In this document: positions 18,789 through 56,721 of the stretch, one piece after another
Position numbering within the stretch: the stretch's first letter is position 1
Layout of the letters: every line of letters starts with the position of its first letter
From: Spirochaetota bacterium
Lineage (GTDB): Bacteria; Spirochaetota; Brachyspiria; Brachyspirales; JACRPF01
Assembly: GCA_038043445.1 (NCBI GenBank)
Contig: JBBTBY010000063.1
Location: forward strand, 1-64,000
Direction of reading: 5' to 3'
DNA: 64,000 nucleotides
Made by a program: the position numbers and the translations under genes
The notes under the pieces: model-generated
The model's database searches: none
Told to the model about the DNA's origin: nothing
Seen by the model: the letters and a program-made list of their open reading frames with translations, nothing else

Positions 18789-18882
18789 GAGCCCCCCTTC
18801 GTTTTCGGGAGGGATGATAGTTGAAATCCAGGAAAATGCAATTTGATGATGCAGCAATCCGCTATACGAAGTGGTGAGCGGT

Positions 18883-18911
18883 TTGACAATTCCATGGATG
18901 CGAAATATGAT
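18883..18911 (+). promoter_or_regulatory. Promoter at head of polysaccharide locus
   Basis: TTGACA-N17-TATGAT, 49 bases before the Wzm start codon. It is the first strong promoter of the locus. Confidence 0.8.
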
Positions 18912-18960
18912 ATTCGCGAGCACCGATAAGGAGTTCCGTACGAACAAGCGAACTGACGGC

Positions 18961-19800
18961 ATGATCATCTATGAACCGAATTCGCGCTCGCGGCTCGGTC
19001 TGTTCGGTGTATGGCGCACCATGGCGGCCGATATCTATACCTCGCGCGACCTCATTGCCCAGATGTTCAAGCGGGATTTTTTCGGCGTATACAAGAAATC
19101 GTTCCTCGGCATTGCCTGGGTATTCATCACACCGCTCCTGGCTATTGTCTCCTGGCTCATCATGAACGCTACCGGCATACTGAAACCCGGTGACGTCGGT
19201 ATTCCCTACCCTGCGTATGTGCTTCTGAGCTCGACCATTTACGGCATGTTCATGGGATTTTATATGGCAGCGCTCGGTACGCTCGATGCCGGGGCTGGGT
19301 TCATCATGCAGGTGAAATATCCGCATGAGGCATTCCTCATTAAACAGGTGGCGCAGTATCTGGCGAATTTCATCATGTCATTCGCCGTTGCCATCGCAGC
19401 GCTTCTCATCTTCCGCATCATACCGCATTGGCAGATAATATTCTTCCCGCTGTTCATGCTGCCGTTCTTCCTGCTCGGTTCGGCGATCGGGCTTGTCATG
19501 ACGGTGGTGAACGTGGTGGCCGTTGAGGCGACGCGTGTGATGAACATAGTGCTCGGGCTTATCATCTACATAACACCGGTCATCTATGCGCCGTCGGTCG
19601 AGAACCCGGTATTGCAAAAGATCATTGCCTATAATCCGCTCACGTATTTCGTCGGTTTTGCACGCGATATGATCGTGTACGGCAAAGCGGAGCATTTTGA
19701 CCGATATCTCATAGCATCACTCGCTTCACTTGTCCTTTTTCTCGCAGCGTGGAACCTCTTCTACGTTTCCGAGGATAAAGTGATAGAGAAAATGATCTGA
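18961..19800 (+). CDS. ABC-2 type polysaccharide exporter permease (Wzm-like)
   Basis: This 279-residue inner-membrane protein has about six transmembrane segments and the ABC-2 permease N-terminal pattern SRDLIAQMFKRDFFGVYKKSFLGIAWVFITPLL. With the following ATPase it would export a lipid-linked polysaccharide across the inner membrane (O-antigen or capsule). ATG at 18961 is the first start downstream of the promoter; longer in-frame extensions would overlap the promoter. AAGGAG at about 18929 is too far away to serve it, so initiation is not certain. It is followed after 22 bases by the ATPase gene. Confidence 0.88.
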   Translation: MIIYEPNSRSRLGLFGVWRTMAADIYTSRDLIAQMFKRDFFGVYKKSFLGIAWVFITPLLAIVSWLIMNATGILKPGDVGIPYPAYVLLSSTIYGMFMGFYMAALGTLDAGAGFIMQVKYPHEAFLIKQVAQYLANFIMSFAVAIAALLIFRIIPHWQIIFFPLFMLPFFLLGSAIGLVMTVVNVVAVEATRVMNIVLGLIIYITPVIYAPSVENPVLQKIIAYNPLTYFVGFARDMIVYGKAEHFDRYLIASLASLVLFLAAWNLFYVSEDKVIEKMI

Positions 19801-19822: not shown

Positions 19823-21076
19823 ATGGATACCGATACTGTAATTGAAGTCGAGGGGCTTTCAAAGAAGTTCTGCCGCAGCGTAAAACGCAGTATGTTCTAC
19901 GGTGCGCTCGATATCGGGAGAAGCATGGTCGGTATTCCCTATTCCCGGGAGAAGCTTCGTCCGGGGGAATTCTGGGCGCTTGACAATGTGAGCTTCTCGC
20001 TCAAACGCGGGGAGACGCTCGGGCTCATCGGCGCCAACGGCTCGGGGAAATCGACGCTCCTGCGCCTGCTTACGGGTATTTTTCCTCCCGACAAGGGACG
20101 TATCAGCATTCGCGGACGCATCGGCGCGCTTATTGCCGTCGGTGCGGGGTTCCATCCGCATATGACGGGACGTGAGAATATCTATCTCAACGGGACCATT
20201 CTCGGTATGACGCGGCAGGAAGTGAATGCGCAATTCGATAATATCGTATCATTTGCCGATATCGGTGAATTCATCGATGCTCCGGTATCCACGTATTCAT
20301 CGGGGATGACGGTACGGCTAGGTTTTTCCATTGCTATTCATTCACATCCGAGCATTCTACTGGCCGATGAAGTGCTTGCGGTCGGTGATCTTGAGTTCGC
20401 GCTGCGGTGCTTTCGCAAGATCGCCGAGTTCCAGAAGAACGGCGGTACCATAATCCTTGTCAGTCATTCGATGCAGCTGGTCAAGAATTCATGTCAGCGC
20501 GCTCTCTGGGTACAGCACGGGGCGGTTGCGCTTGATGGCACTGCTGTTGACGTATGCGGACGTTATGAGACAAAGGTCTTCACGAATCAAGGAAGCAGGG
20601 AGGCAGTTGGCACGCGCGTAAATAATGATCCAATGGCACGGATAGTTTCTGTCGATATCGTCGGCAGCGATGGCGTTCACCGCAGCACGACAGTGCACGG
20701 AGAGCCATTCCGATGTAGGATCCGCTATGCGTGTACACGGATCGTACGTGACCCGGTCGTAACAATGAGTATTACTACTGAGAATGGCGCGATGCTCATC
20801 TCGAATTATACGAATTTTGACGGGAGTAAACGGAGATCGATCGATGGTGAGGGCTATATCGACTTTATCATTGAGCGCCTGCCGCTGGCCCCCGGAAAAT
20901 ATTCCGTCACCATCACCTTCACCGAGAACGGGCAGATCTCAGATGTCCTTGACTGGCTTGAGAACTGCTTCACCTTTTCAGTATCGCCGGCAGGATCGAC
21001 ATCATACGGGCTGATAAATCCATTTCCCCGATGGGAATGGAGCCCTGCATTATCGATCGCTGAACGAGTGCGATGA
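19823..21076 (+). CDS. ABC polysaccharide exporter ATPase with C-terminal glycan-binding domain (Wzt-like)
   Basis: This 417-residue protein has an ABC ATPase domain (1-245) with Walker A GANGSGKST (70-78), signature YSSGM (158-162) and Walker B ILLADE (178-183). An extra C-terminal domain of about 165 residues, predicted beta-rich, follows and matches the Wzt_C arrangement. In known O-antigen systems this domain recognises the capped non-reducing end of the glycan before export. The many methyltransferases downstream could supply such a cap. Export of a terminally modified polymer is therefore inferred. Confidence 0.9.
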   Translation: MDTDTVIEVEGLSKKFCRSVKRSMFYGALDIGRSMVGIPYSREKLRPGEFWALDNVSFSLKRGETLGLIGANGSGKSTLLRLLTGIFPPDKGRISIRGRIGALIAVGAGFHPHMTGRENIYLNGTILGMTRQEVNAQFDNIVSFADIGEFIDAPVSTYSSGMTVRLGFSIAIHSHPSILLADEVLAVGDLEFALRCFRKIAEFQKNGGTIILVSHSMQLVKNSCQRALWVQHGAVALDGTAVDVCGRYETKVFTNQGSREAVGTRVNNDPMARIVSVDIVGSDGVHRSTTVHGEPFRCRIRYACTRIVRDPVVTMSITTENGAMLISNYTNFDGSKRRSIDGEGYIDFIIERLPLAPGKYSVTITFTENGQISDVLDWLENCFTFSVSPAGSTSYGLINPFPRWEWSPALSIAERVR

Positions 21077-36063: not shown

Positions 36064-37770
36064 ATGGATAGAAGTTCAATTCAATACAATCTGATCAGGC
36101 TGTTCCCGATATTTTTAGTTACTCTCGGCATATTGCTCGTATATCAATGTGCGGTTGGATTTTTTTATAATTCCCTTCACACTTTCGGCATACGAGTGCT
36201 CGCTTCTCTGATAGTTGCGGCCTTCTGTGCTCCGATATTGCGTTCTTTGCCCCATGCAGTCAGCGTATCACTCGGTGTAACTTCAATACGAACAGAGTGG
36301 AATAAAAGCCCTGTGCTCTTGCAGTGCATCATCGTTGCTGTCATTGGCGCCATATCGATCATTAACGCGCTTGTATTCCATGAGATGATCCCCGTAAATC
36401 AGTATGGATGGGACGGGGAATTATATGGAAATCTTGCGCAAAACTTTCAGCGCGTATTTTCCGGCGGCGGGATCACTGACTACAGCATTCAGAAGATACT
36501 TCCCAGCGCGATCATACATTATACTCTGGTTTACTTGCAGTTGCCATTGACACCCCACATGGTCAAAGGAGCATTCGAGATATATAATCTTCTGTTGATC
36601 GTTACCGCAGTGCTGCTTTGGGGCGTGATCATAAAAGAAATGAAGATCGGTCATTTCGGGAAATGGGCAGGCTTTTTCGGGTTATTCATGAATTTCGCGA
36701 TGATGAAGTGGAGTTTTTACTACCCCGTTCTGACAGATACAAGTGCGTTCTTCCTCGGCATTCTCTTTTTTTACTTTTACATAAAACGGAACACCGCAGG
36801 AATGTTCGTCTGCATGCTGCTCGCCAGTGTAACATGGGCAAGTTTTATTTTCATGTTCATGCCATTATTCATGTTCCCGGTACGGAAAGACGGAGAGAAG
36901 CCTGCCCCCGCATACTTCAAGTATATTGTTGTGATCACAGGGGTTATAGCATATGCAGCCATTGCATCGTACACTGCCATTGTGAAGCATATCGATTACC
37001 TTGGTGTTCCATCGATGCGTGCAGTTCTGCCGATCAGTATTTTACTGGCATGCGCCTATTTGTTCTTTTCTTTTCGGGAGCTGCTGAACGATGGCAGATT
37101 ATTTCGTCTGCGATCGTGGCTGGATGCACTATCGATCCGTAATCTGCTTTTAGGAATAATGCTGTTCATAATCGTAAAAGCAGGTTTCGCGGCGACACTG
37201 GCCGCGCTTCCCGGCAGCCATATTTCACAGAGTGCCGATTCTACCCGGCTTGTGCTCCAGTCTCTGTTCATCGCCGGGAACAGGATGCCATTGCTTTTCA
37301 TGGTTTCTGCAATTGTTTTTTTCGGACCAGTACTGCTTATGACCATTATATTCTGGAAGCAATTTTTCCAACAAGTGAGATCATACGGATTGGGGATGAT
37401 ACTATTTATCTCATTCGGTGCGATATTCCTTTTTAACAGTGAATCACGGCATTCAGCTCATTTTTACCCCGTTCTCATTTTTTTCACGGCGAAGGTGCTC
37501 GGTGAAAAACGTGTTGCCAACTGGATGATCGTTCTGCTCGGGTGCTTGTCGTTTTTTTATTCGAAAGTATGGCTGTTCATTAACTCATCTCTATTGCATA
37601 CGAATACCGTGCTGAGCGGCAGTTTTCTTGAATTTCCCTGGCAAAAATATTTTATGAACATGGGGATATACATGTCGAACCAGATGTACATCATCCAGAC
37701 GGTATGTATCGCAGCGACAATGATCATTTTCTGGTTCCTATTCCATACATTCGGCAAAGAAAGGCACTGA
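36064..37770 (+). CDS. Polytopic GT-C-like membrane protein
   Basis: This 568-residue protein has about twelve hydrophobic segments. Its first large extracytoplasmic loop contains QYGWDGELYGNLAQ, an acidic W-D-G-x-x-Y pattern common in GT-C enzymes and dolichol- or undecaprenol-dependent transferases. It lacks a soluble domain. It is the last gene before a terminator, so it closes the first section of the locus. Function as a transferase is inferred. Confidence 0.55.
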   Translation: MDRSSIQYNLIRLFPIFLVTLGILLVYQCAVGFFYNSLHTFGIRVLASLIVAAFCAPILRSLPHAVSVSLGVTSIRTEWNKSPVLLQCIIVAVIGAISIINALVFHEMIPVNQYGWDGELYGNLAQNFQRVFSGGGITDYSIQKILPSAIIHYTLVYLQLPLTPHMVKGAFEIYNLLLIVTAVLLWGVIIKEMKIGHFGKWAGFFGLFMNFAMMKWSFYYPVLTDTSAFFLGILFFYFYIKRNTAGMFVCMLLASVTWASFIFMFMPLFMFPVRKDGEKPAPAYFKYIVVITGVIAYAAIASYTAIVKHIDYLGVPSMRAVLPISILLACAYLFFSFRELLNDGRLFRLRSWLDALSIRNLLLGIMLFIIVKAGFAATLAALPGSHISQSADSTRLVLQSLFIAGNRMPLLFMVSAIVFFGPVLLMTIIFWKQFFQQVRSYGLGMILFISFGAIFLFNSESRHSAHFYPVLIFFTAKVLGEKRVANWMIVLLGCLSFFYSKVWLFINSSLLHTNTVLSGSFLEFPWQKYFMNMGIYMSNQMYIIQTVCIAATMIIFWFLFHTFGKERH

Positions 37771-40618: not shown

Positions 40619-41248
40619 ATGCAAAAACTCATCATATTCCCCTATAACGGTAATGGGAGAGAGGCGCTGGACTGCATCTCAGCGGAATTTGAATGCATCG
40701 GTTTTGCCGATGATGCGATAGAAAAGCAAGGAAAGACAGATTCGGGACACGAAGTGTTCTCACGAGATATTTTTGATCGATATCCTGAGGCGAAGGTGCT
40801 TGCCGTCCCCGGCAGTCCTGTTACTTTCCGGGGGAGACGTGCTGTACTTGAGGGGCTTTCGATCGCGCATGACAGATTCGCGACCATTATACATACACGT
40901 GCGAATGTATCTTCAAAAGCTGTTATCGGTCGGAATGTTCTCATCATGGCCGGAGTGGTCCTAACGAGCAATGCTCGCGTAGGCGACCATGTATGCATCC
41001 TTCCCAATTCAGTGGTCCATCATGACAGCCGCGTCGGTGACTTTACTCTGGTAGGTTCGAATGTGACCGTTGCAGGCGGCACTACTATCGGAATGAACTG
41101 CTATATCGGCAGCGGAACGAGCATGATCAACGGTATTACCGTCGGTGATGGGACGCTCATCGGCATGGGTGCCGTCGTTCTGCGTGACGTTGCGCCCGGC
41201 ACGAAAATGGCGGGTGTTCCCGCAAGAAGCATAGGCGGTCCGGCATGA
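40619..41248 (+). CDS. NeuD/PglD-family sugar acetyltransferase
   Basis: This 209-residue protein has a short N-terminal Rossmann-like domain (1-75, LIIFPYNGNGREALD) and a C-terminal left-handed beta-helix (90-205) with the family histidine pair in NSVVHHDSRVGD. Homologues acetylate UDP-4-amino sugars (PglD) or sialic acid (NeuD). It shares four bases (ATGA) with the ArnC-like gene. It would act on an amino sugar made by one of the DegT enzymes nearby. Confidence 0.85.
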   Translation: MQKLIIFPYNGNGREALDCISAEFECIGFADDAIEKQGKTDSGHEVFSRDIFDRYPEAKVLAVPGSPVTFRGRRAVLEGLSIAHDRFATIIHTRANVSSKAVIGRNVLIMAGVVLTSNARVGDHVCILPNSVVHHDSRVGDFTLVGSNVTVAGGTTIGMNCYIGSGTSMINGITVGDGTLIGMGAVVLRDVAPGTKMAGVPARSIGGPA

Positions 41249-42183
41249 AGATCGATCTAACCGTCATTATCCCATTCCTGAATGAAAAGGAAAATATCGG
41301 CCGGCTTGTCGATGCATTGCACAAGTACTTCTCGGGATTTCGCGGCAAGCGGATCGAGGTGTTGTTCGTGGATGATGGATCCACTGACGGTTCTTCAGAT
41401 ACTCTTGAAGGGATCTCACATTCCGGATATACGGCACGTATCGTACGGCTGTCCAGGAATTTCGGATCACATGCTGCGCTCAGGGCAGGCATTCAGCATG
41501 CACAGGGCGCATATATTACGTTCATGTATGCTGATCTCCAGGATCCATTGATACTCATTGAGCAAATGTATGAAAAAGCACGCCGGGGATTCGATATTGT
41601 CTGGGCGCAGCGGCGGTTTCAACGGCCATCCAGCGGGATATTTTCCAGCATGTATGCAGCGCTCATGCGGCGATTCGCAGTGAAAGATTTCCCGGAACAG
41701 GGGTTCGATATCGTACTTTTCGGCGGAAAGGTCAAGCGCGAACTCAATGAGAACATAGAATCAAACTCTTCTCTATTCCTTCAAATAATGACCATGGGTT
41801 TTCGGCAGACATCCCTTTCCTATGAAAAATCACCCCGGGTCCGCGGACGATCGAAATGGACGTTTTCAAAAAAAATAAAACTTTTCATCGATTCATTCGT
41901 CGCTTTCTCATACTTTCCAATCCGACTTGTCAGTATCATGGGAGTACTGTTGTCAATAGCCGGTTTCATCTGGGCTCTTACTATCGTGCTCCGCGCTATC
42001 CTGCTCAGGGACCTCTCTCAGGGCTGGCCGACGCTCATCGCGGTGCTCATGCTTGGTTTCGGCGTTACAAACATTTCGCTCGGGATCATCGCGGAATATC
42101 TTTGGAGGACATTTGATTCTGCCCGCGGCAGGAAAACGTTCATCATAGACCGCGTATACGACCTTTCGGGGAAAGCGAAGTGA
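41245..42183 (+). CDS. ArnC/DPM-like polyprenyl-phosphate glycosyltransferase
   Basis: This 312-residue enzyme has a GT2 domain (LTVIIPFLNEKENI, DDGSTDGS 43-50, YADLQDP) with the R-x-R-G-R-SKW segment typical of polyprenyl-phosphate sugar synthases, and two C-terminal membrane spans. It would load a sugar onto undecaprenyl phosphate at the inner face. Four-base overlaps with both neighbours place it in a coupled set with the PglD-like and SMR-like genes. Confidence 0.86.
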   Translation: MKIDLTVIIPFLNEKENIGRLVDALHKYFSGFRGKRIEVLFVDDGSTDGSSDTLEGISHSGYTARIVRLSRNFGSHAALRAGIQHAQGAYITFMYADLQDPLILIEQMYEKARRGFDIVWAQRRFQRPSSGIFSSMYAALMRRFAVKDFPEQGFDIVLFGGKVKRELNENIESNSSLFLQIMTMGFRQTSLSYEKSPRVRGRSKWTFSKKIKLFIDSFVAFSYFPIRLVSIMGVLLSIAGFIWALTIVLRAILLRDLSQGWPTLIAVLMLGFGVTNISLGIIAEYLWRTFDSARGRKTFIIDRVYDLSGKAK

Positions 42184-42551
42184 TCACCATAGTGCGCATT
42201 ATCATCTTCTGTACGCTCTATGCGGTGTTCAATGTGAGCGGAGCGGTGCTGATAAAAATGGAATTGAAGAACAGAACGCTTGACGGCGTGCGTGAATACA
42301 TGCAGTTCCTGTTCACCGGGAGAGTGATCAGCGGGTTCCTGCTCATCGGTGTTTCAGCGCTCATCATTTTCAAGGGGCTTTCATCCGGAAGATTTTCCTA
42401 TGTAATGCCGGTAGCGGTCGGGATAAATTTCATACTTACGGTCGCAGCCGGGGCAATACTGTTCGGGGACCGCCTTTCACTTCTTTCTTTTCTCGGGATC
42501 TCGTTAATACTGTTAGGGATAGTATTCATGAGCATGCAGCCGGCAGCATGA
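42180..42551 (+). CDS. Small four-span membrane protein (ArnE/ArnF- or SMR/EamA-like)
   Basis: This 123-residue protein has four predicted membrane segments and the SMR-like pattern SGRFSYVMPVAVGINFILTVAAGAILFGDRLS. ArnE/F proteins flip Und-P-aminoarabinose. Starting with GTG in a GTGA overlap with the ArnC-like gene, it is a strong candidate to flip the lipid-linked sugar made by that enzyme. Small multidrug transporter relatives are the alternative, less likely here. Confidence 0.75.
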   Translation: MITIVRIIIFCTLYAVFNVSGAVLIKMELKNRTLDGVREYMQFLFTGRVISGFLLIGVSALIIFKGLSSGRFSYVMPVAVGINFILTVAAGAILFGDRLSLLSFLGISLILLGIVFMSMQPAA

Positions 42552-44734: not shown

Positions 44735-46471
44735 ATGGCTGAGAAGAAGAGCGCATGGGCACATGTAGTAGAAAAGATCGACCGGAAAGCGGCCATTTTC
44801 GCAGCAATTGTGCTCGGGGTATTCTTTCTTTATACGCGAGTCAATGAACTTGCTCAATTTGCTCCAGTATCTGATGAGCTATCAAACATCGTTACTGTAA
44901 AATATCTCGATAAGAACATTATCCCGCTCTACGCTCCCGGGACGTATAGTCCTAATTACAAGAAGCTTCCTATGAAGCCGTATGTATACTGGGAATATTC
45001 GGCAGAATTGTACCTGTTCCGTTACCCGGTATACTTTTTCTTCTCGAAAATTCTCGGACAAAATGATCCTATGGGCTGGAACTGGTCGGTAGCATCGAAT
45101 CTGGTCCCGGTATTCATGCTGCTCATTGCGCTCATCATATATTACGCACGTTCCCGAAGCATGAGTTTGTCCCCGCTTTCTGTGGGCTTTCTTATCTGTA
45201 TAGTATTCCTCTGGCGCTGGTCAGGGCAGTCGTTCCACTATATCCGACACTACTCTTTTACTGTCATCAGCATTGTTGTATGTCATTTTTATGCAAACTA
45301 CATCATGACGCATTCAAAGGCGAGTGATACAAAAAAGGACATATTGATCATCCTTGTCGCGGCCATCCCGTTACTGTTTAACTTATTGAACGCAACCTAT
45401 CTGGTTTTTTGGATAATATTCATCTCACTGCGCCGGTTACGGGCAGCATATCAACAGAATGGCATACAGGCATTGTTAAAAGGGATCGCCATTGCAGCAG
45501 GCGCAACATTGCTTACTGCAGGTGCCGGATTCCTGATCCTTAAATTTGTAATAGGAAAAAATATTCTTGGCGGACATTTGTACATCAACATCAATAATAT
45601 GAAGGTCATCCCTCATTTCTTTCAATGGAGCATAAATAACGGCGTAAAAAGCCTCATAGCCGTTGCTTTACTCATTGCTGCCGCTGTATTTCGAGCTAAG
45701 AGGATGGATCCGTATGAAAGGGGACTGCTTCTGACTGCGGTCGGCTTTGTGACTACTGCACTTGCCGTACTGTCGATAAGCGGTGGAGAAACCACGCTTT
45801 CACATCCCACGAGGTATACGTTTTTCTTCCATGTAGGCTGGCTTATTATCGCGGCAGTTCTGCTCTCGAATTTTGTACAATTCCTATCTGAGCGGCTGCC
45901 AACGATCCCATTGAAAAAAACGGGTTTATTTTTTGCGGCGCTCGTAGCTTTTTCCTATTGCTATCGCGAAAAGATCGATCAAATCCCGGGCTTTCTGTAT
46001 CTTCAGCCGAAAAAGGAAATACAGGGACAGATCGATAAACTTGCACGGGTGATAGATCGTGATACGGTCGTTATATCAGCAGATCCGATCATAATCTGGC
46101 TGAATTTCCCTCGGACGAAGTACTACTTTTTCAGGCCCATCGAACTTCCATCAAAAACTGACATGATGAACCTTGGGCGTTATGGAGTTGATAAGCACGG
46201 ATTCATCGTCGATTGGTATGGAGACACCTATGTCGGCAATATGTGGTCGTTCGTAAAGATGCTGAAAGAAAACGAGTCCAAGGTGATCGTATTTGATGGC
46301 GTACGACCGACGGATGATGCATTATGGGGATTCCTAAAAAGGAACGGTTTCAATGTCGATCATACCCCGATCGCCGTAAAGAAGATTCTTGAGCGGCTGC
46401 CAAAAGGGAATTCATTCGATCCTCCAGCCGAGGTAACGGCGGCCATGCGGAAAAAACCGTCGTTGCGTTGA
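44735..46471 (+). CDS. Polytopic GT-C-like membrane glycosyltransferase
   Basis: This 578-residue protein has about ten membrane segments and an N-terminal extracytoplasmic loop with QFAPVSDELSNIVTVKYL. The D-E pair matches the catalytic position of PMT/ArnT-type enzymes, which take a sugar from a polyprenyl phosphate at the outer face of the inner membrane. AGGGACAG precedes the ATG. It follows the ArnC- and ArnE/F-like genes and begins a run of three large membrane proteins. The acceptor is unknown. Confidence 0.65.
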   Translation: MAEKKSAWAHVVEKIDRKAAIFAAIVLGVFFLYTRVNELAQFAPVSDELSNIVTVKYLDKNIIPLYAPGTYSPNYKKLPMKPYVYWEYSAELYLFRYPVYFFFSKILGQNDPMGWNWSVASNLVPVFMLLIALIIYYARSRSMSLSPLSVGFLICIVFLWRWSGQSFHYIRHYSFTVISIVVCHFYANYIMTHSKASDTKKDILIILVAAIPLLFNLLNATYLVFWIIFISLRRLRAAYQQNGIQALLKGIAIAAGATLLTAGAGFLILKFVIGKNILGGHLYININNMKVIPHFFQWSINNGVKSLIAVALLIAAAVFRAKRMDPYERGLLLTAVGFVTTALAVLSISGGETTLSHPTRYTFFFHVGWLIIAAVLLSNFVQFLSERLPTIPLKKTGLFFAALVAFSYCYREKIDQIPGFLYLQPKKEIQGQIDKLARVIDRDTVVISADPIIIWLNFPRTKYYFFRPIELPSKTDMMNLGRYGVDKHGFIVDWYGDTYVGNMWSFVKMLKENESKVIVFDGVRPTDDALWGFLKRNGFNVDHTPIAVKKILERLPKGNSFDPPAEVTAAMRKKPSLR

Positions 46472-46494
46472 AAATATATTGACCGCACTATACA

Positions 46495-48627
46495 ATGATA
46501 TTCCAGCAGATGGATAAAACGATCAAGACGATCATCTCAAAGTTCGCTCTCGTTGCAGCGAAAATCACGCAAGACCATGTATTCGGCGTATTTGTGTTCA
46601 TCGCGTTACTTGTTGCGTATGCATGGGATTTCGGCTCCCTCGGGTTTTACAGTGATGATGTCGCGTTCCTGTATCAGAACCAGACACTTCCTCAGATCAT
46701 TTCATCCGCCCTGCGTTATGTACCCGGCAGGAATCTGCATATCATCTGGCAGCAATTGCTGTTCTTCATCTGCGGCGGGAGCACACCTGAACATATTGCC
46801 AGTCTTCATCTCATCCAATCGATCCTCGATGCGCTGAATGTAACTCTGGTCTTTATTATCATGCGTTCGCTGAAAGTGCCGCTTCTCTGGGCATTCATTG
46901 CAGCAATGCTGTTCGGGGCGTTCCCGAACCATGCCGAGACGCATTTTTGGCTCTCATCGGCGCCGATGAACATCATATCGACGATGTTCCTGCTCATATT
47001 CATGCTGCTGGCTGTCGTTGCAATTAAGAACAGTACGCGTATAACAGGGGCGCGTTCGACCATACTTTTCTTTGCTTCGCAATTTCTGTGCTTTCTCGGT
47101 GCATTGTTCACCTATGATCAGACATTTTTTATCCTATTCCTTGTACTTGCACTGCAGCTGTACATTCTGTTCCGAAATGGCTTTCCGCTGAAAAAATGTG
47201 TTCTCGCGGTTGTGCCGTTCCTGATCATCGGTCTTGCATACGCATTCATGAAATTGGCCCTTGCCCGCGGCGGGTCCGCCGGCGGTCCATCCGCCATTTT
47301 TTCATCAAAGAATATCGCTATACAATTCTTAAATTCATTGCAGTACATGCTGAATCCATTCACCGATGCTTATAGTGCTTTTTTTTCAGGGACATTGTTT
47401 GTTCCTGGTATCGACCATGCGGTGTCGGTCATCGCCGCAAGTCTCGTGTGCTGCGGCAGCATAGCATCGCTTGTGTATTCCGCCTTCAATTCCCGTAAGG
47501 AAGAAACGACCGGCGACTTGGCTTTTCATGGTTGGCGCAGATCGATACTGCTCGTTCTTGTTTCTCTTTTCCTATGCTTTTCAGGATATCTGCCGAATTA
47601 TCTTTGGGGGCTGGCGCCTCGGCATAATTATCTTCCATCGGTCGGGTTATTCCTATTCTTTGCTGCGCTCATGTCGATCCCGTATGCCATTATACATTCA
47701 AAGCGGCGCATGCTCTTCATAGTGACGAATGGCGCACTTTTGATACTTGTATTCCCCGTGATAGTATTCTTTTTCATGAGAACGAATGAGCAGAAACAGG
47801 AGTGGATAGAAGCGTATCAGCTGAAAAAAAATCTTTATACCGATATAGCGACGAATTACACTATCAGCGCAGTACGATTCGCCGCCATTCACAATTTCCC
47901 CCGGGGCTATAAGCACGTTCCGTTCTTTGATTATGAAAACGGTAATGCAATAAACTATTTGATGCAGACGAATATACTCCCCGACGGATTTGAGACTTGT
48001 TCACTCGATACACCGGAGGGGCACTTTTTCTGCATATCGCAATGGAAAGACGGGCTTGGACGGATCCGCTATCTACCGAGGGGTTCGGTGCTCAAGCTCT
48101 TTTTTACCGGATACAAGGACCGGTTCCATTTCTCATATTACCGAGTGACGAACTTTTCAGAGCCGCAGAACTTCTATTCGGGACATTATTATACGGTGCT
48201 TTCCATCGCTGCAGGAGAACGAACTGCTTCGATGACCAATAGACATATTCTGCAGAGCTCCGTTCATCATGCCCGCGGCGGCATGGAATTACGGTTATCC
48301 GTCGACGTGAACAGCATACGCATGCGACCTGGTGAAGTGCTGGGGATGATATTATGGGACTATGATACACCGAACGGATATGGTACTGTTCATTCGGCTG
48401 ATGTTCCCCTGAGGACAAATGATATCGGGATATACGCAGAGATCGATAGAAAGGCTATCCTTCCGATACAATTGCCACCGTTAGCGACCAGCCCAGTCAT
48501 TCATTATTCATTGATAGTGAAAGATCGTACTCAGATGAAGAAATACAGATTATCTCTTTATCGATTCGGCCCCGATCCACCGGTATTGCTCGATGATCGT
48601 GTTTTTGTGATGGGAACACAGCAGTAA
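46495..48627 (+). CDS. Large GT-C-like membrane protein, first of a tandem pair
   Basis: This 710-residue protein has about twelve membrane segments in the first 435 residues, then a roughly 270-residue soluble domain. The first extracytoplasmic loop has GFYSDDVAFLYQ, an acidic pair at the GT-C active-site position. The C-terminal domain contains YTDIATNYTI and FETCSLDTPEGHF. Its closest match is the next gene along the whole length, so the two arose by duplication. Start ATG at 46495 is used; ATG at 46510 is an alternative. Function as a transferase of lipid-linked sugar is inferred. Confidence 0.6.
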   Translation: MIFQQMDKTIKTIISKFALVAAKITQDHVFGVFVFIALLVAYAWDFGSLGFYSDDVAFLYQNQTLPQIISSALRYVPGRNLHIIWQQLLFFICGGSTPEHIASLHLIQSILDALNVTLVFIIMRSLKVPLLWAFIAAMLFGAFPNHAETHFWLSSAPMNIISTMFLLIFMLLAVVAIKNSTRITGARSTILFFASQFLCFLGALFTYDQTFFILFLVLALQLYILFRNGFPLKKCVLAVVPFLIIGLAYAFMKLALARGGSAGGPSAIFSSKNIAIQFLNSLQYMLNPFTDAYSAFFSGTLFVPGIDHAVSVIAASLVCCGSIASLVYSAFNSRKEETTGDLAFHGWRRSILLVLVSLFLCFSGYLPNYLWGLAPRHNYLPSVGLFLFFAALMSIPYAIIHSKRRMLFIVTNGALLILVFPVIVFFFMRTNEQKQEWIEAYQLKKNLYTDIATNYTISAVRFAAIHNFPRGYKHVPFFDYENGNAINYLMQTNILPDGFETCSLDTPEGHFFCISQWKDGLGRIRYLPRGSVLKLFFTGYKDRFHFSYYRVTNFSEPQNFYSGHYYTVLSIAAGERTASMTNRHILQSSVHHARGGMELRLSVDVNSIRMRPGEVLGMILWDYDTPNGYGTVHSADVPLRTNDIGIYAEIDRKAILPIQLPPLATSPVIHYSLIVKDRTQMKKYRLSLYRFGPDPPVLLDDRVFVMGTQQ

Positions 48628-48636
48628 TGCGTTGTC

Positions 48637-48665
48637 TTGACAAAGCACTACTGCTCCTGTAGTAT
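48637..48665 (+). promoter_or_regulatory. Promoter between the two tandem paralogues
   Basis: TTGACA-N17-TAGTAT begins 10 bases after the stop of the first copy and ends 28 bases before the chosen ATG of the second, giving the second copy independent expression. Confidence 0.7.
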
Positions 48666-48693
48666 GAATGCATATCCATTGAGAGAAACAAGA

Positions 48694-50781
48694 ATGAGAT
48701 CTGTTCCTGTTCTTTTTTCTGCGCTTAGAAAAAGAACAACAATCGACCATGGCTTAGGAATTTTCATGTTTCTCTCCGTGCTGCTGGTCTTTTCATGGGG
48801 CAGCAGATCCCTAGGGTTTTACAGTGATGACGTAGCGTTCCTGCAAGGCAGCTATAGCATCCCTCAAATGGTCGAAAAGGCATTTTCTTATGTTCCGGGG
48901 AGGAATCTCCATATCGTCTGGCAGCAGCTCGTTTTTTTCATCTGCGGGGGGAGCGAGCCGCGAGCCTTAGGGAATATCCATTTCCTTCAGGCCATAGTCG
49001 ATGCTATGAACGTAGTCCTCGTCTTCGGGGTGCTGCGCACAGCAAGCATTCCGCGGCTTTGGTCGGTATTGCTGTCATTTGTTTTTGCTTTTTTCCCGAA
49101 TCACATGGAGACACATTTCTGGATCTCGTCGCTGCCAATGAACCTTGTTTCGACCATGTTCTTCCTCGCTTTCCTGCTGCTCAGCATGAAAATAATCTCA
49201 GCGGGGAACATGGTGAAGAACAACGCAGCGTTCCGGGTGCTGCTTGGTATTCAATTCGTACTGTTCTTCTGCGCGCTTTTTACTTATGAACAGATGTTCT
49301 TCCTTATTTTTTCCATCTGTATCCTTCAATTTGCGCTGCTTCGCGTCAACACCCCCCGAGGAACGCTCATTATCGCTGCAGTACCGTATTCATTCGTTGC
49401 CGCCGGTTATGTATTCTTAAAAATGAACGTCTCGGCCATGGCTGTGGTCACGGGGCCGTCGATACAATTCAGTTTTCATACCGTGCGGACAAATCTGTTC
49501 GTTGCGCTCAACAATATGTTCCAGCCATTTACCGAAGCCAATGCGCGTTTATTCCGGGCAGATTTCTGGGCGGACCCGAAGCATGTGCTCGCCGCCTGTA
49601 CTATTCTTGCTGCGTCAGTGGTCCTGTCCATTGTTATGATGCTGCTTCAAAAGAACGATGGTCCTGTGCCGAGTGAACGCAGCAAGAACACCGTCCTTCG
49701 CTTTGTCTTCATTGCTGCGCTGGGGGCGTGTATATGCATTCTGGCCTATCTGCCGAATTTGTTCTGGTCCATAGCACCCCGCCATAATTACTTACCATCA
49801 CTCGGCATTACGATCATTCTCGCATCGATCGCCGCTTTGATACACCATGCCGCAAGATCTGTCGGGCACATTGCCTATTATGCAGCACAATATGGGCTTA
49901 CGGTCATTCTATCGTTACTGATGTCCTACTTTTTCATTCAGACATATACGCATAAGAATGAATGGATTGAGGCATATCAGCTGAAAAAGAATTTATACAC
50001 CGATATAGCATCGCATTATGACCTTGCCCATATCGATTTCCTGGCACTCCATAATTTTCCGCGGGTGCATAAGAACGTCCCGCTCTTTGATTATGAGAAC
50101 GGTGATGCCATACGCTATTTTACGGGACGGGATATACTTCCCTTGGGATTTGAGACCTGTTCACTTGACACCAAGACCGGGCATTATGCATTCATCTCCG
50201 AGTGGAAACACGGCATCAGCGGGATACGCTATTTTGAAAAGGGCAAAGTACTGAAATTGATCTTTGCCGGATACAAGGACCGATATCATTTCAGCTATTT
50301 TCCATTGACCGATGCTGCTGCATCATATAATTTCTATGCCGATAATTACTATGCCGTCAGCGAAACAGGCACGGGACCCCGAGACTCTTCCGCAAGGAAT
50401 ACCCGCCTGCATGCTGGCAGTTTCTCCACAGTGAACACCCTGCCCGTTCTTCACATTTCGATCGATACAACAGGGTGCATAAGCAATAAGGGCGAGCAAC
50501 TGGGTATTCTGTTATGTGAATCGCATGATAAAGGAGCGAGCTTTCGGGTCTTTTCAGCACCGGTGCCTTTTCGGACGAATGATATCAATGTCTATTCTCT
50601 CATCGATAGGACCGCGATCGTACCGATCAGTCTGCCCCATCGTGACAGCGGGGCGGTAACGACGTATTCGATCATATTAAAGAAGGTACTGCCGGCGGAT
50701 GCGTATAAGGTGTCATTGTACCGCTTCAGCACGGCACCGCCGGTACTGCTCGATGAACGTATCTATAGCAATAAGAATTGA
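48694..50781 (+). CDS. Large GT-C-like membrane protein, second of a tandem pair
   Basis: This 695-residue paralogue of the preceding gene keeps the same order: about twelve membrane segments, an acidic GFYSDDVAFLQG loop, and a C-terminal soluble domain with YTDIASHYDL and LGFETCSLDTKTGHY. ATG at 48694 (MRSVPVLF) is the first good start after the promoter; ATG at 48664 overlaps the -10 box and is less likely. Divergence between copies is clear in the soluble domain. It may act on a different sugar or linkage. Confidence 0.6.
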   Translation: MRSVPVLFSALRKRTTIDHGLGIFMFLSVLLVFSWGSRSLGFYSDDVAFLQGSYSIPQMVEKAFSYVPGRNLHIVWQQLVFFICGGSEPRALGNIHFLQAIVDAMNVVLVFGVLRTASIPRLWSVLLSFVFAFFPNHMETHFWISSLPMNLVSTMFFLAFLLLSMKIISAGNMVKNNAAFRVLLGIQFVLFFCALFTYEQMFFLIFSICILQFALLRVNTPRGTLIIAAVPYSFVAAGYVFLKMNVSAMAVVTGPSIQFSFHTVRTNLFVALNNMFQPFTEANARLFRADFWADPKHVLAACTILAASVVLSIVMMLLQKNDGPVPSERSKNTVLRFVFIAALGACICILAYLPNLFWSIAPRHNYLPSLGITIILASIAALIHHAARSVGHIAYYAAQYGLTVILSLLMSYFFIQTYTHKNEWIEAYQLKKNLYTDIASHYDLAHIDFLALHNFPRVHKNVPLFDYENGDAIRYFTGRDILPLGFETCSLDTKTGHYAFISEWKHGISGIRYFEKGKVLKLIFAGYKDRYHFSYFPLTDAAASYNFYADNYYAVSETGTGPRDSSARNTRLHAGSFSTVNTLPVLHISIDTTGCISNKGEQLGILLCESHDKGASFRVFSAPVPFRTNDINVYSLIDRTAIVPISLPHRDSGAVTTYSIILKKVLPADAYKVSLYRFSTAPPVLLDERIYSNKN

Positions 50782-50792
50782 GATGGTGTGAT

Positions 50793-52319
50793 GTGAAGAC
50801 GAAGAGATCTACGATTATCGCCCCGGACAATGCCGCTATCGAGAAAGCTGCGGCATTGCTTTTGAAAAAAAAGATCGCGGTCTTCATCGTGATGTACAAT
50901 GCCGAGAAGTATATCGCACGGGTCCTGGCACGGATACCCGATGCCCTCAGGAATAAATTCGCTGAAATATATATCATCGATGATTCTTCGCGTGATACCA
51001 GCTTTCAGGAAGCCATGCGTGCCGGAACGGAACTGGGGTATAAAAATCTGCGTGTTATGCGCACCCCGTTCAATCGCGGATACGGCGGGAATCAGAAGCT
51101 TGGTTATCTGTATGCCGTGAGAAAAAAATTCGATGCGGTAATACTGCTCCATGGCGACGGGCAGTATGCGCCTGAACATCTGCCTCATATGGTGAACGCA
51201 TTCGCCGATACGAGCGTTTCGGTCGTGCTGGGGTCTCGGATGCTGGTGAAAACAAACGCCCTCAAGGGCGGTATGCCGTTGTATAAATGGGTGGGAAATC
51301 AGGTGTTGACCGCTTTTGAGAATGCGATACTTAAGACACGGCTGTCGGAATTCCACACCGGATACCGCGGGTATGCAGTACAATTCCTGCGGTCCGTTCC
51401 CTTTGAATTGAACAGCGATGACTTTCATTTTGACACGGAGATATTGATACAGGCGATCGCGACGAAACAGCATATGAAGGAGATAGCCATTCCGACGTTC
51501 TACGGGGACGAAACCTGTCATGTGAACGGCGTGCAGTATGCCATGAACTGTACGAAGTCAGTGATAAAGTACCGGCTCACGCAATGGGGGCTTTTTTACG
51601 AACCGAATTTCGATTTCAAGCTTTTCGAGACATCCGCGTATAATTTTAAGAAAGCTCACAATTCGCTCCATCAGTATATTCTGCGGGAAAAACTCCCAAA
51701 GCATGCATCGTTGGCGGATCTCGGCGCGAATGACGGCGTATTGAGCGCCGCACTTGCAGAAAAGGTCGGCCACGTGACCGCTGTGGATATTCACATGCCG
51801 AAGCATGCCGGCAGGGCGAAGGCGAAAGCGCTTGATCTCGACGGCCCATTTGATGCTGCATTGAAGAGAGAAGCATTCGATCTTGTGCTGGCACTCGATG
51901 TGATAGAACATCTGAAATCCCCTGAAAGCGGCATAAAGAAAATATTCACCATAGTGAAGCCGGGGGGCTATCTCTATGCAAGTACGGCGAATATCGGATA
52001 TTTTGTGAACAGATTCTCGCACATGGCCGGCATGTTCAATTATGGGAAACGCGGCATTCTGGATATGACGCATAAGCGTTTGTTCACTCGATATTCATTC
52101 TGTAAATTATTGACCCAAAATGGATTCATCATAAAGCGAAAGGCGCATTTTGGACCGCCGATCGTCGACATGATAGGGGGGAACTGGATATTATCCATTA
52201 TCGACTCTCTCAGTTCATTCCTTGCTGCGATATGGCCGACATTATTCTCGTATAATTTCCTGATCGTAGCCCAGCGCAAGGACGACATTGAAGATATTTA
52301 TAAACGAACGGTATTGTGA
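50793..52319 (+). CDS. Fused DPM-like glycosyltransferase and SAM methyltransferase
   Basis: This 508-residue protein joins a GT2 domain (about 1-290: VFIVMYNAEKYI, IIDDSSRDTS, LLHGDGQYAPE, SRMLV) to a class I methyltransferase (about 300-450: LADLGANDGVLS, ALDVIEHLKSPESG). It would transfer a sugar and methylate it in one chain. The start is uncertain: GTG at 50793 is used, with an in-frame TTG at 50778 as an alternative; neither has a strong ribosome site. Confidence 0.82.
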   Translation: MKTKRSTIIAPDNAAIEKAAALLLKKKIAVFIVMYNAEKYIARVLARIPDALRNKFAEIYIIDDSSRDTSFQEAMRAGTELGYKNLRVMRTPFNRGYGGNQKLGYLYAVRKKFDAVILLHGDGQYAPEHLPHMVNAFADTSVSVVLGSRMLVKTNALKGGMPLYKWVGNQVLTAFENAILKTRLSEFHTGYRGYAVQFLRSVPFELNSDDFHFDTEILIQAIATKQHMKEIAIPTFYGDETCHVNGVQYAMNCTKSVIKYRLTQWGLFYEPNFDFKLFETSAYNFKKAHNSLHQYILREKLPKHASLADLGANDGVLSAALAEKVGHVTAVDIHMPKHAGRAKAKALDLDGPFDAALKREAFDLVLALDVIEHLKSPESGIKKIFTIVKPGGYLYASTANIGYFVNRFSHMAGMFNYGKRGILDMTHKRLFTRYSFCKLLTQNGFIIKRKAHFGPPIVDMIGGNWILSIIDSLSSFLAAIWPTLFSYNFLIVAQRKDDIEDIYKRTVL

Positions 52320-52349
52320 AGAAAGAACATGCCTGATGGAGGTATTGCC

Positions 52350-53303
52350 ATGGATACGATCTCTATTGTACTGCCGGTATACAATGAGGAGGAATCGCTC
52401 CCCGTACTGAACGAAAGCATAGTGCGCGTGCTGAAAAAGCATAACTATCACTATGAGGTGATCTATATCGATGACGGTTCAAGTGATGGGTCGGCAAAGG
52501 TGATAACATCGCTTGCGGAAAAGAACAAGCATGTAAAAGGCGTTTTCCTGCGCAGGAATTTCGGGCAGAGCGCAGCGACAGCTGCAGGGATCGACAGGGC
52601 GTTGGGCGACATCATCGTTATCATGGACAGCGATCTGCAGAACGATCCGAACGATATCCCAAAGCTCATTGGGAAGATACAGGATGGCGCCGATGTGGTG
52701 AGCGGCTGGCGGAAGCAAAGGAAGGATAATGCCATCGTGCGTAATCTCCCCTCCTGGGTGGCCAATCGTCTCATCAAGAAGGTTTCTGGCCTTAAGATAC
52801 ATGATCTCGGCTGTTCACTGAAGGCGTACCGCCGTGATGTGATAAAGAGCGTACGTCTCTACGGGGAGATGCACCGGTTCATCGCCATCTATGCCAGTAT
52901 GATCGGAGGGCGCGTCGATGAGGTGGAGGTGACGCATCATGCCCGAAAATACGGCGTGTCGAAGTACGGGCTGAACCGGATATTCAAGGTGCTTCTTGAC
53001 CTGATAACATTGAAATATCTGCTCGATTATGCGACGAAGCCGATATACTTCTTCGGCAAACTGGCAACCGCATTCTTTGTGCTCGGAACATGCTCGTTCG
53101 CGGGACTTCTCGTACACAAATTCTATTTCGATGCGTCGTTCGTCCGTTCACCGCTCCTCCTGCTCACCGCGATAATATTCGTGATCGGTTTCCAGACGCT
53201 CCTCACCGGACTCCTCGCGGAGATACTCATGCGAATCTATCATGAGTCGCAGGAAAAGCCCATCTACTATGTACGCGGCACGGCCGGTACCGGGAAAAAG
53301 TAA
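52350..53303 (+). CDS. GT2 polyprenyl-phosphate glycosyltransferase with two membrane spans
   Basis: This 317-residue enzyme has the GT2 motifs TISIVLPVYNEEES, DDGSSDGS (41-48), MDSDLQNDP and R-K-Y-G-VSKY, followed by two membrane spans, the arrangement of undecaprenyl-phosphate sugar synthases. The start at 52350 follows GGAGG; an in-frame ATG at 52329 is less likely. It is the second such enzyme in the locus, the first being at 41245. Confidence 0.86.
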   Translation: MDTISIVLPVYNEEESLPVLNESIVRVLKKHNYHYEVIYIDDGSSDGSAKVITSLAEKNKHVKGVFLRRNFGQSAATAAGIDRALGDIIVIMDSDLQNDPNDIPKLIGKIQDGADVVSGWRKQRKDNAIVRNLPSWVANRLIKKVSGLKIHDLGCSLKAYRRDVIKSVRLYGEMHRFIAIYASMIGGRVDEVEVTHHARKYGVSKYGLNRIFKVLLDLITLKYLLDYATKPIYFFGKLATAFFVLGTCSFAGLLVHKFYFDASFVRSPLLLLTAIIFVIGFQTLLTGLLAEILMRIYHESQEKPIYYVRGTAGTGKK

Positions 53304-53328
53304 TGACGAGCGAGCACAGGCAGCCTGC

Positions 53329-56300
53329 ATGAGGATATTCTACGCCTCCGATACGACCGCTATTCCCGGCATAGCGTCGAACGTCTGGCGGAACAATCTC
53401 TATCTTCCGCTCGTGGATCTCGGGCATGATGTGATCGAGTTCGCCTATGATCTCACAGCGACGTTCGCGCATCTTGACACCGCGCATCATCTGCAAAAGG
53501 CGTTCATCGAAAAGAATCGTCCAGTGCTGTCGGCAGAACTTCTGCGGCAGATCCGGGCAGCTCATTCGGCAAAGCCGCTTGATATGTTCTTCAGCTATTT
53601 CTACGATGCGTGCATAACGCCTGAAGTCGTAGATGAGATAAAATCCATGGGCATAGTGACCGTGAACTGGTTCTGCAACAGTTCGTACCAGCTCCGGCTC
53701 GTCCGGGAGATAGCGCCGCATTATGACTGGTTCCTGTTCCCGGAGAAATTCCGCATTAAAGACTATATAGCCATCGGGGCTAATCCCCTCTATTGTCAGG
53801 AAGCGGCAAACCCCGCCATCTATAAACCTTATAATGCCGCGAAGGACTTGGACGTTTCCTTCGTTGGTCAGGCATACGGCGATCGCCCTTCGATAATTCA
53901 AACGATGAGGTCGGCAGGGGTCAACGTAACGGTATTCGGTCCAGGATGGAACCATCATTCGAACATCATCCCGGCATCCGCTTATGGCGGCGTGCTCTCT
54001 GATGAAGATATGGTAAAAGTATACAGCCGTTCAAAGGTGAACGTCGGTTTCTCAACCTGCGGGGAGACGCAGAGCCTTCCACAGCGCATTCTGCAGATAC
54101 GGCTCAGGGATTTTGAGATACCGATGAGCGGCGGGTTCTACATGGTGGAATACATGGAGGACCTGGAGGAATTCTTTAAGATCGGCACAGAGATCGTCTG
54201 CTACCGCGGAACCGACGATCTTATTGAAAAAGTGAAATACTACCTCGCCCATGAAAGCGAGCGAGAGCGGATCCGGAAGGCCGGATACGAACGCGCGCAG
54301 AGCGACCATACATGGCAGAAGCGTCTTGCCGCTGCCTTCGCCGTCATCGCCCAGAACGACAGGCTGGCAGCGCGGTTAACAATGGATGATTACAAGCGGT
54401 GGTTCTTCGCCATGGGGCAGGAATTGCCGATCGATTGGGAATTGTATGAACAGACAAGCCGGCTGTTCCATTCAACGTATGCCGATGCACAGGCAATGGC
54501 GAAAGAGATCGCGGCGATACATGCATCACCATACTGGAAGCTCGCGAACGTGATCAAGAAAATGGCAGGCGTGCTGGCGCCGCAGGGGAGTCTGCGGTAT
54601 GCGATCGCAGAAAACATCTGGAATGCGATGCGATCGGTACGAAAGAACGATGCCGCGAACCGTTCCAGCGCCCACCCGCTGATGCGCTTGGGCAAATCGC
54701 TCTTCCCACGAGGCACTGCACGCCGCGTCGTGGTGCTGCGGGGGTTGAAACAGTTCAATAAGGCGATCAAAGCAATAACCTTACAAGAAACAGAGAGCGA
54801 GCCTTGGGACAGAACGCATCCATTGATGAGCGTTATCATCCCCTGCTTCAACTACGGCAAGTACATCGAGGAGGCGGTCGATTCCGTTCTCGCCCAGACG
54901 TGGATGGATCTTGAGATCATTATCGTCGACGACGGTTCGACCGATGCGCATACCCGTGATGTGCTCTCGCGGTTGGACCGTCCGAAAACAAGGATCATCT
55001 ATCAGCAGAATAAAAAACTGCCGGCGGCCCGGAATAACGGAATAAAAACTGCTGCCGGAAAATATATCTGCTGCCTTGACGCAGATGACATCCTTGCGCC
55101 GAGTTATCTTGAAAAATGCATCGTGAAGATGGAGTACGAACATCTTGATGTATGCTATTCGAACCTCAAAATGTTCGGCGACGATGATGCCGTCTGGCGG
55201 ACAAGCGACCGTTTCCTGGTAAAGACCCTCATGCGTGCGAATGCGGCGACCGTTGCATCGGTATTTCGCCGCAGCGTATGGGAGGCGGTCGGCGGGTATA
55301 ATGAGCATATGGTCATGGGGTATGAGGATTGGGACTTCTGGCTGAAGTTATGCGAAGCAGGTGCACGGGGGGCGAAGATCGACGAGGACCTTTTTCTCTA
55401 CCGCAAGCACGGCGTATCGATGATCGATGAATCCCAGAAAAAGCACGATATCGTTTTCGGCATGCTCAAGGAGAATCATGGGATGCTTTTCAGCGACCGT
55501 TCCTTGGCAAATGCGATACAGAGGAAGCAGCGCGCGCAGTACCGAGTGCATAATCCCAATATGAATATCACGGCGGCGAATAAGCCGCCGAGCACCGGCA
55601 CACGGGGAATATTGTTCGCGCTTCCCTACTGCGTCAAAGGCGGTGCAGATACCGTTCTCCATACGATCGCAGAGCATCTTTCGTCGAACGGGTTTGGGCT
55701 TACTATCATCACCACTCAACCGATCGAACCCGGCTGTACCGATACGAGCGGTTCTTACAAGACGATAACCCGCGCGATCTATGACCTTCATACACTGCTT
55801 GCGCACGAGGAGATGTGGCGGGATTTCGTGCTGTACCTCCTTGAGACACGGCAGATCAAAGTGATCTATATCGTTGGGTGCGAGTTCATGTATCATATCC
55901 TTCCCGAGATCAGAACGCGCTTCCCCGATATCGCCATTGTCGACCAGCTCTACAATGACTACGGACATATAACGAACAACCGGAAATACTCTCATCTGAT
56001 CGATATAAACATCGTTGAGAACAGGACGATAGAGCGAACGCTCCTTGAACGGTATCATGAGACCAAAGAGAAGGTGCTCCTTATTCCCAATGGCGTTGAT
56101 GCCGATTCGTTTTCCCCGGCTTTGTTCGATCGAGCGAATGTCATCGCAACGAAGTTCCCCTACCTGAAGGATAAATTCGTCATCTCATTCTTAGGGCGAT
56201 TTTCAGAAGAGAAAGCCCCTGATCAATTCGTCACGATCGCGCGGAGCCTTTCGAAAGAAGCGGAATACGCATTCCTCATGGGCGGCGAAGGCCCGCTCGC

Positions 56301-56721
56301 AGATCATATCGCAGCGCTGAGAGAGAAATATGGCCTGCATAATCGGCTGCATCTGCCCGGGTTCATCGATGTAAAAAGCGCACTTGCAGTCACCGATATA
56401 TTGGTGCTTCCATCGCGTATAGACGGCAGACCGAATATCGTGCTTGAAGCGCTCTCCATGGGGGTTCCCGTCGTCGCATCGCGCATTGGCGGTGTACCGG
56501 AAATGATCCATGACGGTGAGAACGGCATTCTCTGCGATGCAGAAGACACAAATGGTTTCATCAATGCGATACGCTCCATCATGAACGATGCGGATCGGCG
56601 CACTTTGATGCGTGCATGCGCAAGAGCGCTGGCGGTATCCGAGCTTGATGTCCGCACCATGCTTTCCTCGTACAGGGCAGTATTCGAACGGATCATCACA
56701 TCAAAATCCCGTTCCAATTGA
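53329..56721 (+). CDS. Three-domain glycosyltransferase (CgeB-like, GT2, GT4)
   Basis: This 1130-residue protein has three catalytic-looking domains: an N-terminal CgeB-like GT (1 to about 370: MRIFYASDTTA, DVSFVGQAYGDRP, VGFSTCGETQS), a GT2 domain (about 499-735: MSVIIPCFNYGKYI, VDDGSTD, CLDADDILAPS) and a GT4 domain (about 756-1125: ALPYCVKGGADTV, IPNGVDADSF, GFIDVKSALAVTDILVLPSR). A helical linker with HASPYWKLANVIKKM lies between the first two. It could build a three-sugar segment in one polypeptide. ATG at 53329 is used; an in-frame ATG at 53242 would lie inside the upstream gene. Confidence 0.85.
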   Translation: MRIFYASDTTAIPGIASNVWRNNLYLPLVDLGHDVIEFAYDLTATFAHLDTAHHLQKAFIEKNRPVLSAELLRQIRAAHSAKPLDMFFSYFYDACITPEVVDEIKSMGIVTVNWFCNSSYQLRLVREIAPHYDWFLFPEKFRIKDYIAIGANPLYCQEAANPAIYKPYNAAKDLDVSFVGQAYGDRPSIIQTMRSAGVNVTVFGPGWNHHSNIIPASAYGGVLSDEDMVKVYSRSKVNVGFSTCGETQSLPQRILQIRLRDFEIPMSGGFYMVEYMEDLEEFFKIGTEIVCYRGTDDLIEKVKYYLAHESERERIRKAGYERAQSDHTWQKRLAAAFAVIAQNDRLAARLTMDDYKRWFFAMGQELPIDWELYEQTSRLFHSTYADAQAMAKEIAAIHASPYWKLANVIKKMAGVLAPQGSLRYAIAENIWNAMRSVRKNDAANRSSAHPLMRLGKSLFPRGTARRVVVLRGLKQFNKAIKAITLQETESEPWDRTHPLMSVIIPCFNYGKYIEEAVDSVLAQTWMDLEIIIVDDGSTDAHTRDVLSRLDRPKTRIIYQQNKKLPAARNNGIKTAAGKYICCLDADDILAPSYLEKCIVKMEYEHLDVCYSNLKMFGDDDAVWRTSDRFLVKTLMRANAATVASVFRRSVWEAVGGYNEHMVMGYEDWDFWLKLCEAGARGAKIDEDLFLYRKHGVSMIDESQKKHDIVFGMLKENHGMLFSDRSLANAIQRKQRAQYRVHNPNMNITAANKPPSTGTRGILFALPYCVKGGADTVLHTIAEHLSSNGFGLTIITTQPIEPGCTDTSGSYKTITRAIYDLHTLLAHEEMWRDFVLYLLETRQIKVIYIVGCEFMYHILPEIRTRFPDIAIVDQLYNDYGHITNNRKYSHLIDINIVENRTIERTLLERYHETKEKVLLIPNGVDADSFSPALFDRANVIATKFPYLKDKFVISFLGRFSEEKAPDQFVTIARSLSKEAEYAFLMGGEGPLADHIAALREKYGLHNRLHLPGFIDVKSALAVTDILVLPSRIDGRPNIVLEALSMGVPVVASRIGGVPEMIHDGENGILCDAEDTNGFINAIRSIMNDADRRTLMRACARALAVSELDVRTMLSSYRAVFERIITSKSRSN

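Follow-up and report, generated by a model that had tools for sequence, protein, structure and literature searches.

Why would one bacterial polysaccharide locus carry, side by side, two large membrane proteins of the same build, each ending in a sizeable soluble tail? We address this question for a pair of genes in a 64,000-nucleotide stretch of DNA from a Spirochaetota bacterium (hereafter the window). An original prediction, made from the letters of the window, had read the pair as duplicated GT-C proteins and had suggested that the second copy, having its own promoter, might be expressed under other conditions than the first, which could allow a switch of antigen or linkage. Herein, we ask what kind of enzymes these are, what their tails and neighbors suggest about their task, and why there are two.

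A Tandem Pair of Paralogues

Both genes lie on the forward strand. ORF A (46495..48627) encodes 710 amino acids, with ATG 46510 as a possible alternative start, and ORF B (48694..50781) encodes 695, counted from ATG 48694. Two other start candidates for B, the rule-based TTG 48637 and ATG 48664, are less likely than ATG 48694, since TTG 48637 makes up the opening triplet of a −35 box (TTGACA) and the protein begun at ATG 48694 aligns with A from the N-terminus on. The two proteins align end to end across 700 residues with 40% identity and 60% positives (E = 0.0), which bears out the claim of tandem, adjacent paralogues of about 700 residues, both found where they had been placed. The SDD loop and the common blocks YTDIA, GFETCSLDT, and GYKDR.HFSY are indeed identical in A and B. 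The membrane spans are paralogous and in the same order, as had been claimed, but their number is lower than the proposed twelve or so: hydropathy gives 10 to 11, within the GT-C range of 7 to 14 helices. The soluble tail, put at roughly 270 residues, is present and measures about 280 (residues ~430–710).

Identity between A and B varies along the protein, from 62.5% at residues 431–550 and 37% at 551–710 to 13–23% in the later spans, thus placing the first part of the tail among the best-kept regions of the protein. Third codon positions are randomized (35% identity) and second positions are kept (66%); judged by these values, the duplication is old, and selection has acted on both copies. 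No third copy was found in the whole genome, with a search by family profile included.

The Membrane Half and GT-C Identity

Shortly after the first span, A carries the loop S53-D54-D55 (46651..46659, + strand), matched in sequence by B (48823..48831, +), and its DD is invariant in all six N-terminal-complete family members of the family alignment. A DD or DxD motif shortly after span 1 is a recognized catalytic feature of GT-C enzymes (PMC6801728), and we propose these residues as the catalytic acidic pair. A late loop, R376-H-N-Y-L-P-S in A (47620..47640, +) and likewise RHNYLPS in B (49780..49800, +), is conserved in the family alignment as well.

Curated models (Pfam, NCBIfam), scanned protein by protein over the whole of A and B, missed the family altogether; an Anthrone_oxy match (E 0.029) was set aside, as it is below the cut-off and falls in membrane spans. 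Profile-profile comparison (hhalign), on the other hand, joins the membrane half to TMTC-like proteins bearing TPR repeats over about 355 columns, with 98% probability and an E value of 3e-13. It pairs the DD loops, PNH.ETHFW with HPVHAESVAW, and RHNYLPS.G with R..YL.S.G. The proteins compared were recognized by motif and TPR tail rather than by a curated GT-C model; proteins of the same kind make up most of the weaker matches when the family profile is run against Elusimicrobiota genomes. On the strength of this profile kinship the GT-C reading stands, and the identification of the membrane half as GT-C is supported. Structure does not yet demonstrate the fold, since the full-length AF2 model, built on a three-row alignment, reached a pLDDT of 38 and is unusable. 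Searches of the PDB by sequence or profile gave no meaningful match (the best named being MlnD, E 1.8), and no TPR family was detected in A, B, or their tails.

The Soluble Tail

The tail occupies residues 430–710 in A (47782..48624, +) and 49942..50778 (+) in B. It had been described as no recognized carbohydrate domain, and this holds: searched alone, it matched nothing in Pfam, NCBIfam, or the PDB, CBM families included. Structural prediction, which had been suggested as a check, was informative for the tail and not for the full-length protein. Modeled by itself, the tail shows a low-confidence beta-sandwich at its C-terminal part (residues 566–707 of A; 48190..48615, +), with pLDDT of about 60–77 and residues ~625–656 below 50, the remainder of the tail being unreliable. 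Foldseek returned no significant match for the full-length or the tail model; the top ones were unrelated and mostly beta-rich (E > 0.001), those for the tail being mostly Ig-like or other beta-rich domains.

A beta-sandwich is the usual shape of the carbohydrate-binding tails of other GT-C enzymes (PMC11127046). At low confidence, the predicted fold resembles the tails of GT136 ORF12, EmbC, and AftD.

The Surrounding Locus

A run of closely spaced genes, almost all of them on the + strand, extends from 18.9 to at least 62 kb (all positions in this section are on that strand). Domain searches place an ABC-2 membrane protein of the Wzm type (18871..19800) and an ABC ATPase with a Wzt_C carbohydrate-binding domain (19823..21076) at its start. 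Closer to the pair, families and hydropathy identify two ArnC-like GT2 proteins with two C-terminal spans each, at 41245..42183 (ArnC/PgfS-like, scoring best with PgfS in NCBIfam, and a probable polyprenyl-phosphate-sugar synthase) and at 52329..53303; the matches of both are below the equivalog cut-offs. Directly beside the former, 42180..42551 encodes a small four-span SMR/ArnE-like protein, a possible flippase for lipid-linked sugar that has weak matches only (best E 3e-4). The locus also holds nucleotide-sugar epimerases, aminotransferases, many GT2/GT4 transferases, and several uncatalogued multi-span proteins. A GtrA family protein is absent from the genome, a Wzy_C ligase candidate is encoded elsewhere in it, and no surface-protein gene was recognized beside A and B. 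Taken together, the gene content is nearly what one would expect for an ABC-dependent O-polysaccharide that is decorated in the periplasm.

Some neighbors deserve mention in their own right. Three multi-span proteins (24845–26821, 36064–37770, and 44735–46471; 658, 568, and 578 aa) have no Pfam match and are probably GT-C-like, the last one lacking significant similarity to A. Directly 3' of ORF B, 50793–52319 encodes a fusion of GT2 and methyltransferase domains, and 53242–56721 a chain of 1159 aa with three glycosyltransferase domains (Glyco_trans_1_2, GT2, and GT4-type). A B12-binding radical SAM protein (30177–31688) also lies within the polysaccharide cluster.

Relatives and Family Distribution

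Within its own phylum, the family was found in 1 of 393 sampled genomes, namely, the source genome. A first scan of the genome collection gave one relative, in an Elusimicrobia MAG, and a three-sequence profile run against 295 Elusimicrobiota genomes added four more (L003, L010, L012, and L013) and a fragment at a contig edge (L011). At the search level used, each full-length Elusimicrobiota relative is a single copy in an O-antigen-type locus. All five relatives lie among polysaccharide genes, and their neighbors include genes for Wzy_C ligases/polymerases, priming sugar transferases, GT2 proteins, and flippases. Shorter GT-C relatives of about 500 aa (L006, L020, and L016, also from Elusimicrobiota) share the N-terminal DD loop and lack the large tail. 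Viral, plasmid, and phage collections yielded no relatives, and a literature search on O-antigen TPR glycosyltransferases of Elusimicrobia found nothing. Within the set of relatives sampled, the tree groups A with B as sisters (100/100 support), so that separate acquisition of each copy is not favored.

Promoter-Like Sites and Transcription

The site proposed as B's own promoter, TTGACA-N17-TAGTAT (48637..48665, +), is present exactly as described, and in 1.3% of shuffles the gap before B contains a site as good. An equally good one, TTGAAA-N17-TACAAT (46468..46496, +), precedes A and overlaps its ATG. The total number of such sites between 40 and 58 kb is at chance level (22 vs. 24.5 by shuffling), but their placement is not: among the 11 coding-strand sites from 18 to 62 kb that reach 10 or more matches out of 12, 6 have their −10 box in or adjoining a short intergenic gap (26805, 39472, 46468, 48637, 56718, and 57861, within 18328–62451), where 0.26 to 0.37 would be expected by chance, and 1000 shuffles never reached six. 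As the threshold and the gap list were picked after the data had been seen, this enrichment is suggestive and not proof. No promoter-like sites lie in gaps on the opposite strand of the same region. Such placement suggests internal promoters along the cluster, and the promoter before B may be real; it fails to single out B, since sites of the same rank precede A and four other genes.

Between A and B there is no terminator-like site, which makes read-through from A into B likely. The S. mutans pgf operon, where a putative promoter and terminator precede pgfM2, the second GT-C gene, is still cotranscribed (PMC5856776). Neither a tandem-repeat tract nor a convincing invertible repeat was found in the stretch between the copies or on either side of them, and the domains found at the locus include no recombinase. 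A 17-base inverted pair (47551–47567/48682–48698) and others were rejected as switch elements because they look like chance.

Comparison with Known Systems

A close counterpart, likened here by architecture, is ORF12 (CAZy GT136) of Citrobacter youngae O1, a GT-C protein that combines about 11 spans with a beta-rich domain at its C-terminus (PMC11127046). Its locus also has an ABC exporter, a Wzt with a carbohydrate-binding C-terminus, and post-polymerization addition in the periplasm (a step that we propose for our locus). The donor there is undP-pentofuranose, made available by a polyprenyl-phosphoribose synthase and a MATE flippase, whereas our locus has ArnC-like GT2 proteins and an SMR-like protein, so the sugar is probably of another kind. 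The Ig-like C-terminal domain of ORF12, assayed for binding as residues 503–652, binds O-polysaccharide and was dispensable for catalysis in the assay used (PMC11127046).

Other systems share parts of this plan. TMTC (GT105) and bacterial TMTC-like TPR proteins resemble the membrane half by profile in the first-loop acidic motif and the two further loops given above, but A and B lack TPR repeats, their tail is a different, beta-rich domain, and the kinship is invisible to a single-sequence family search. The likely logic of GtrA-GtrB-Gtr(type) O-antigen glucosylation is also similar (undP-sugar synthase, small flippase, and GT-C transferase), although here GtrA is missing, the polymer is ABC-dependent, and there are two large-tailed transferases. 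PgfS-PgfM1-PgfE-PgfM2 of Streptococcus mutans combines a PgfS-like GT2, two GT-C-type paralogues, and an epimerase in one operon (PMC5856776), but with a protein acceptor, a gram-positive host, and no such tail reported. EmbA/B/C and AftD are GT-C enzymes whose extracytoplasmic carbohydrate-binding domains contact the acceptor (PMC11127046); unlike A and B, they are mycobacterial arabinan enzymes using a decaprenyl donor, and the PDB search gave no sequence match to them.

What the Two Copies May Do

We consider A and B most probably to be duplicated GT-C transferases that decorate an ABC-exported O-polysaccharide in the periplasm after its polymerization, with a probability of about 0.62. One or both of the ArnC-like GT2 proteins (41245 and/or 52329) would put a sugar on undecaprenyl phosphate at the cytoplasmic side, the small SMR-like protein (42180) would carry the lipid-linked sugar across the membrane, and A and B, through the DD loop that follows span 1, would pass it on to the exported polysaccharide. 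The tail, with its predicted beta-sandwich, may hold the acceptor glycan. The two copies could then modify separate sites on one polymer or use two donors; such a division is probable because two donor synthases are present. This reading draws on the TMTC-like profile match and the invariant DD, on the ArnC/PgfS-like GT2 proteins and the SMR-like protein encoded in one run of genes with the pair, and on the Wzm/Wzt_C exporter, the relatives' polysaccharide loci, and the beta-sandwich. It has an experimental precedent in C. youngae O1, where the set of components is very similar (PMC11127046), and a general one in multicomponent decoration systems (PMC8035078). Weighing against it are the pLDDT of 38, the lack of a significant Foldseek match for either model, the weak SMR match, the absence of GtrA, and the dependence of the profile match on TPR proteins that have no assigned substrate.

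The acceptor could also be a protein instead of a glycan. TMTC1–4 are protein O-glycosyltransferases, and PgfM1 and PgfM2 are thought to be so as well. With TMTC-like proteins as the nearest detectable relatives, PgfS as the best NCBIfam score of the GT2 at 41245, and two GT-C paralogues proposed for early and late steps in pgf (PMC5856776), A and B might be protein O-glycosyltransferases whose tails bind exported protein substrates. We regard this as unlikely, though worth keeping in view: no neighboring surface-protein gene was recognized, the relatives all have polysaccharide genes around them, Wzy_C or priming transferases among these, and the locus has its own O-polysaccharide ABC exporter.

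Rather less probable is that catalysis falls to one copy, with the other as an accessory partner. Yeast Pmt1 and Pmt2 work as a heterodimer, and the adjacency and equal length of the genes would suit such a pair, with the strongly conserved juxtamembrane tail as a potential interface; both copies, however, keep the DD, RHN, and other invariant loops, and the relatives are single copy. That A and B act as a switch, with B separately regulated to alter linkage or antigen, seems very improbable. The promoter-like sites ahead of both genes are gap-placed above chance, but B is matched in this by A and other genes, the run is tightly packed on one strand, and the terminator, repeat tract, invertible element, and recombinase searched for did not appear. 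Neither switching nor differential expression of the copies, as originally predicted, thus finds support here.

Returning to decoration of the exported O-polysaccharide, a bolder version can be put forward tentatively, and we would not bet on it: A and B would represent a new GT-C family whose tail (residues 431–707) is a new acceptor-binding domain, and the pair would make two successive or alternative decorations on one ABC-exported O-polysaccharide from two polyprenyl-phosphate sugars.

Perspective

Judging from the databases searched, the sequence family and its tail are uncatalogued; the kind of enzyme and the type of system are already known. The general picture of how such decoration systems work is left unchanged by A and B. 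If our reading is true, an uncatalogued GT-C family and its tail would be added to an expanding group of enzymes that diversify O-polysaccharides once polymerization is complete, and the pair would offer natural material for testing whether acceptor specificity lies with the tail.
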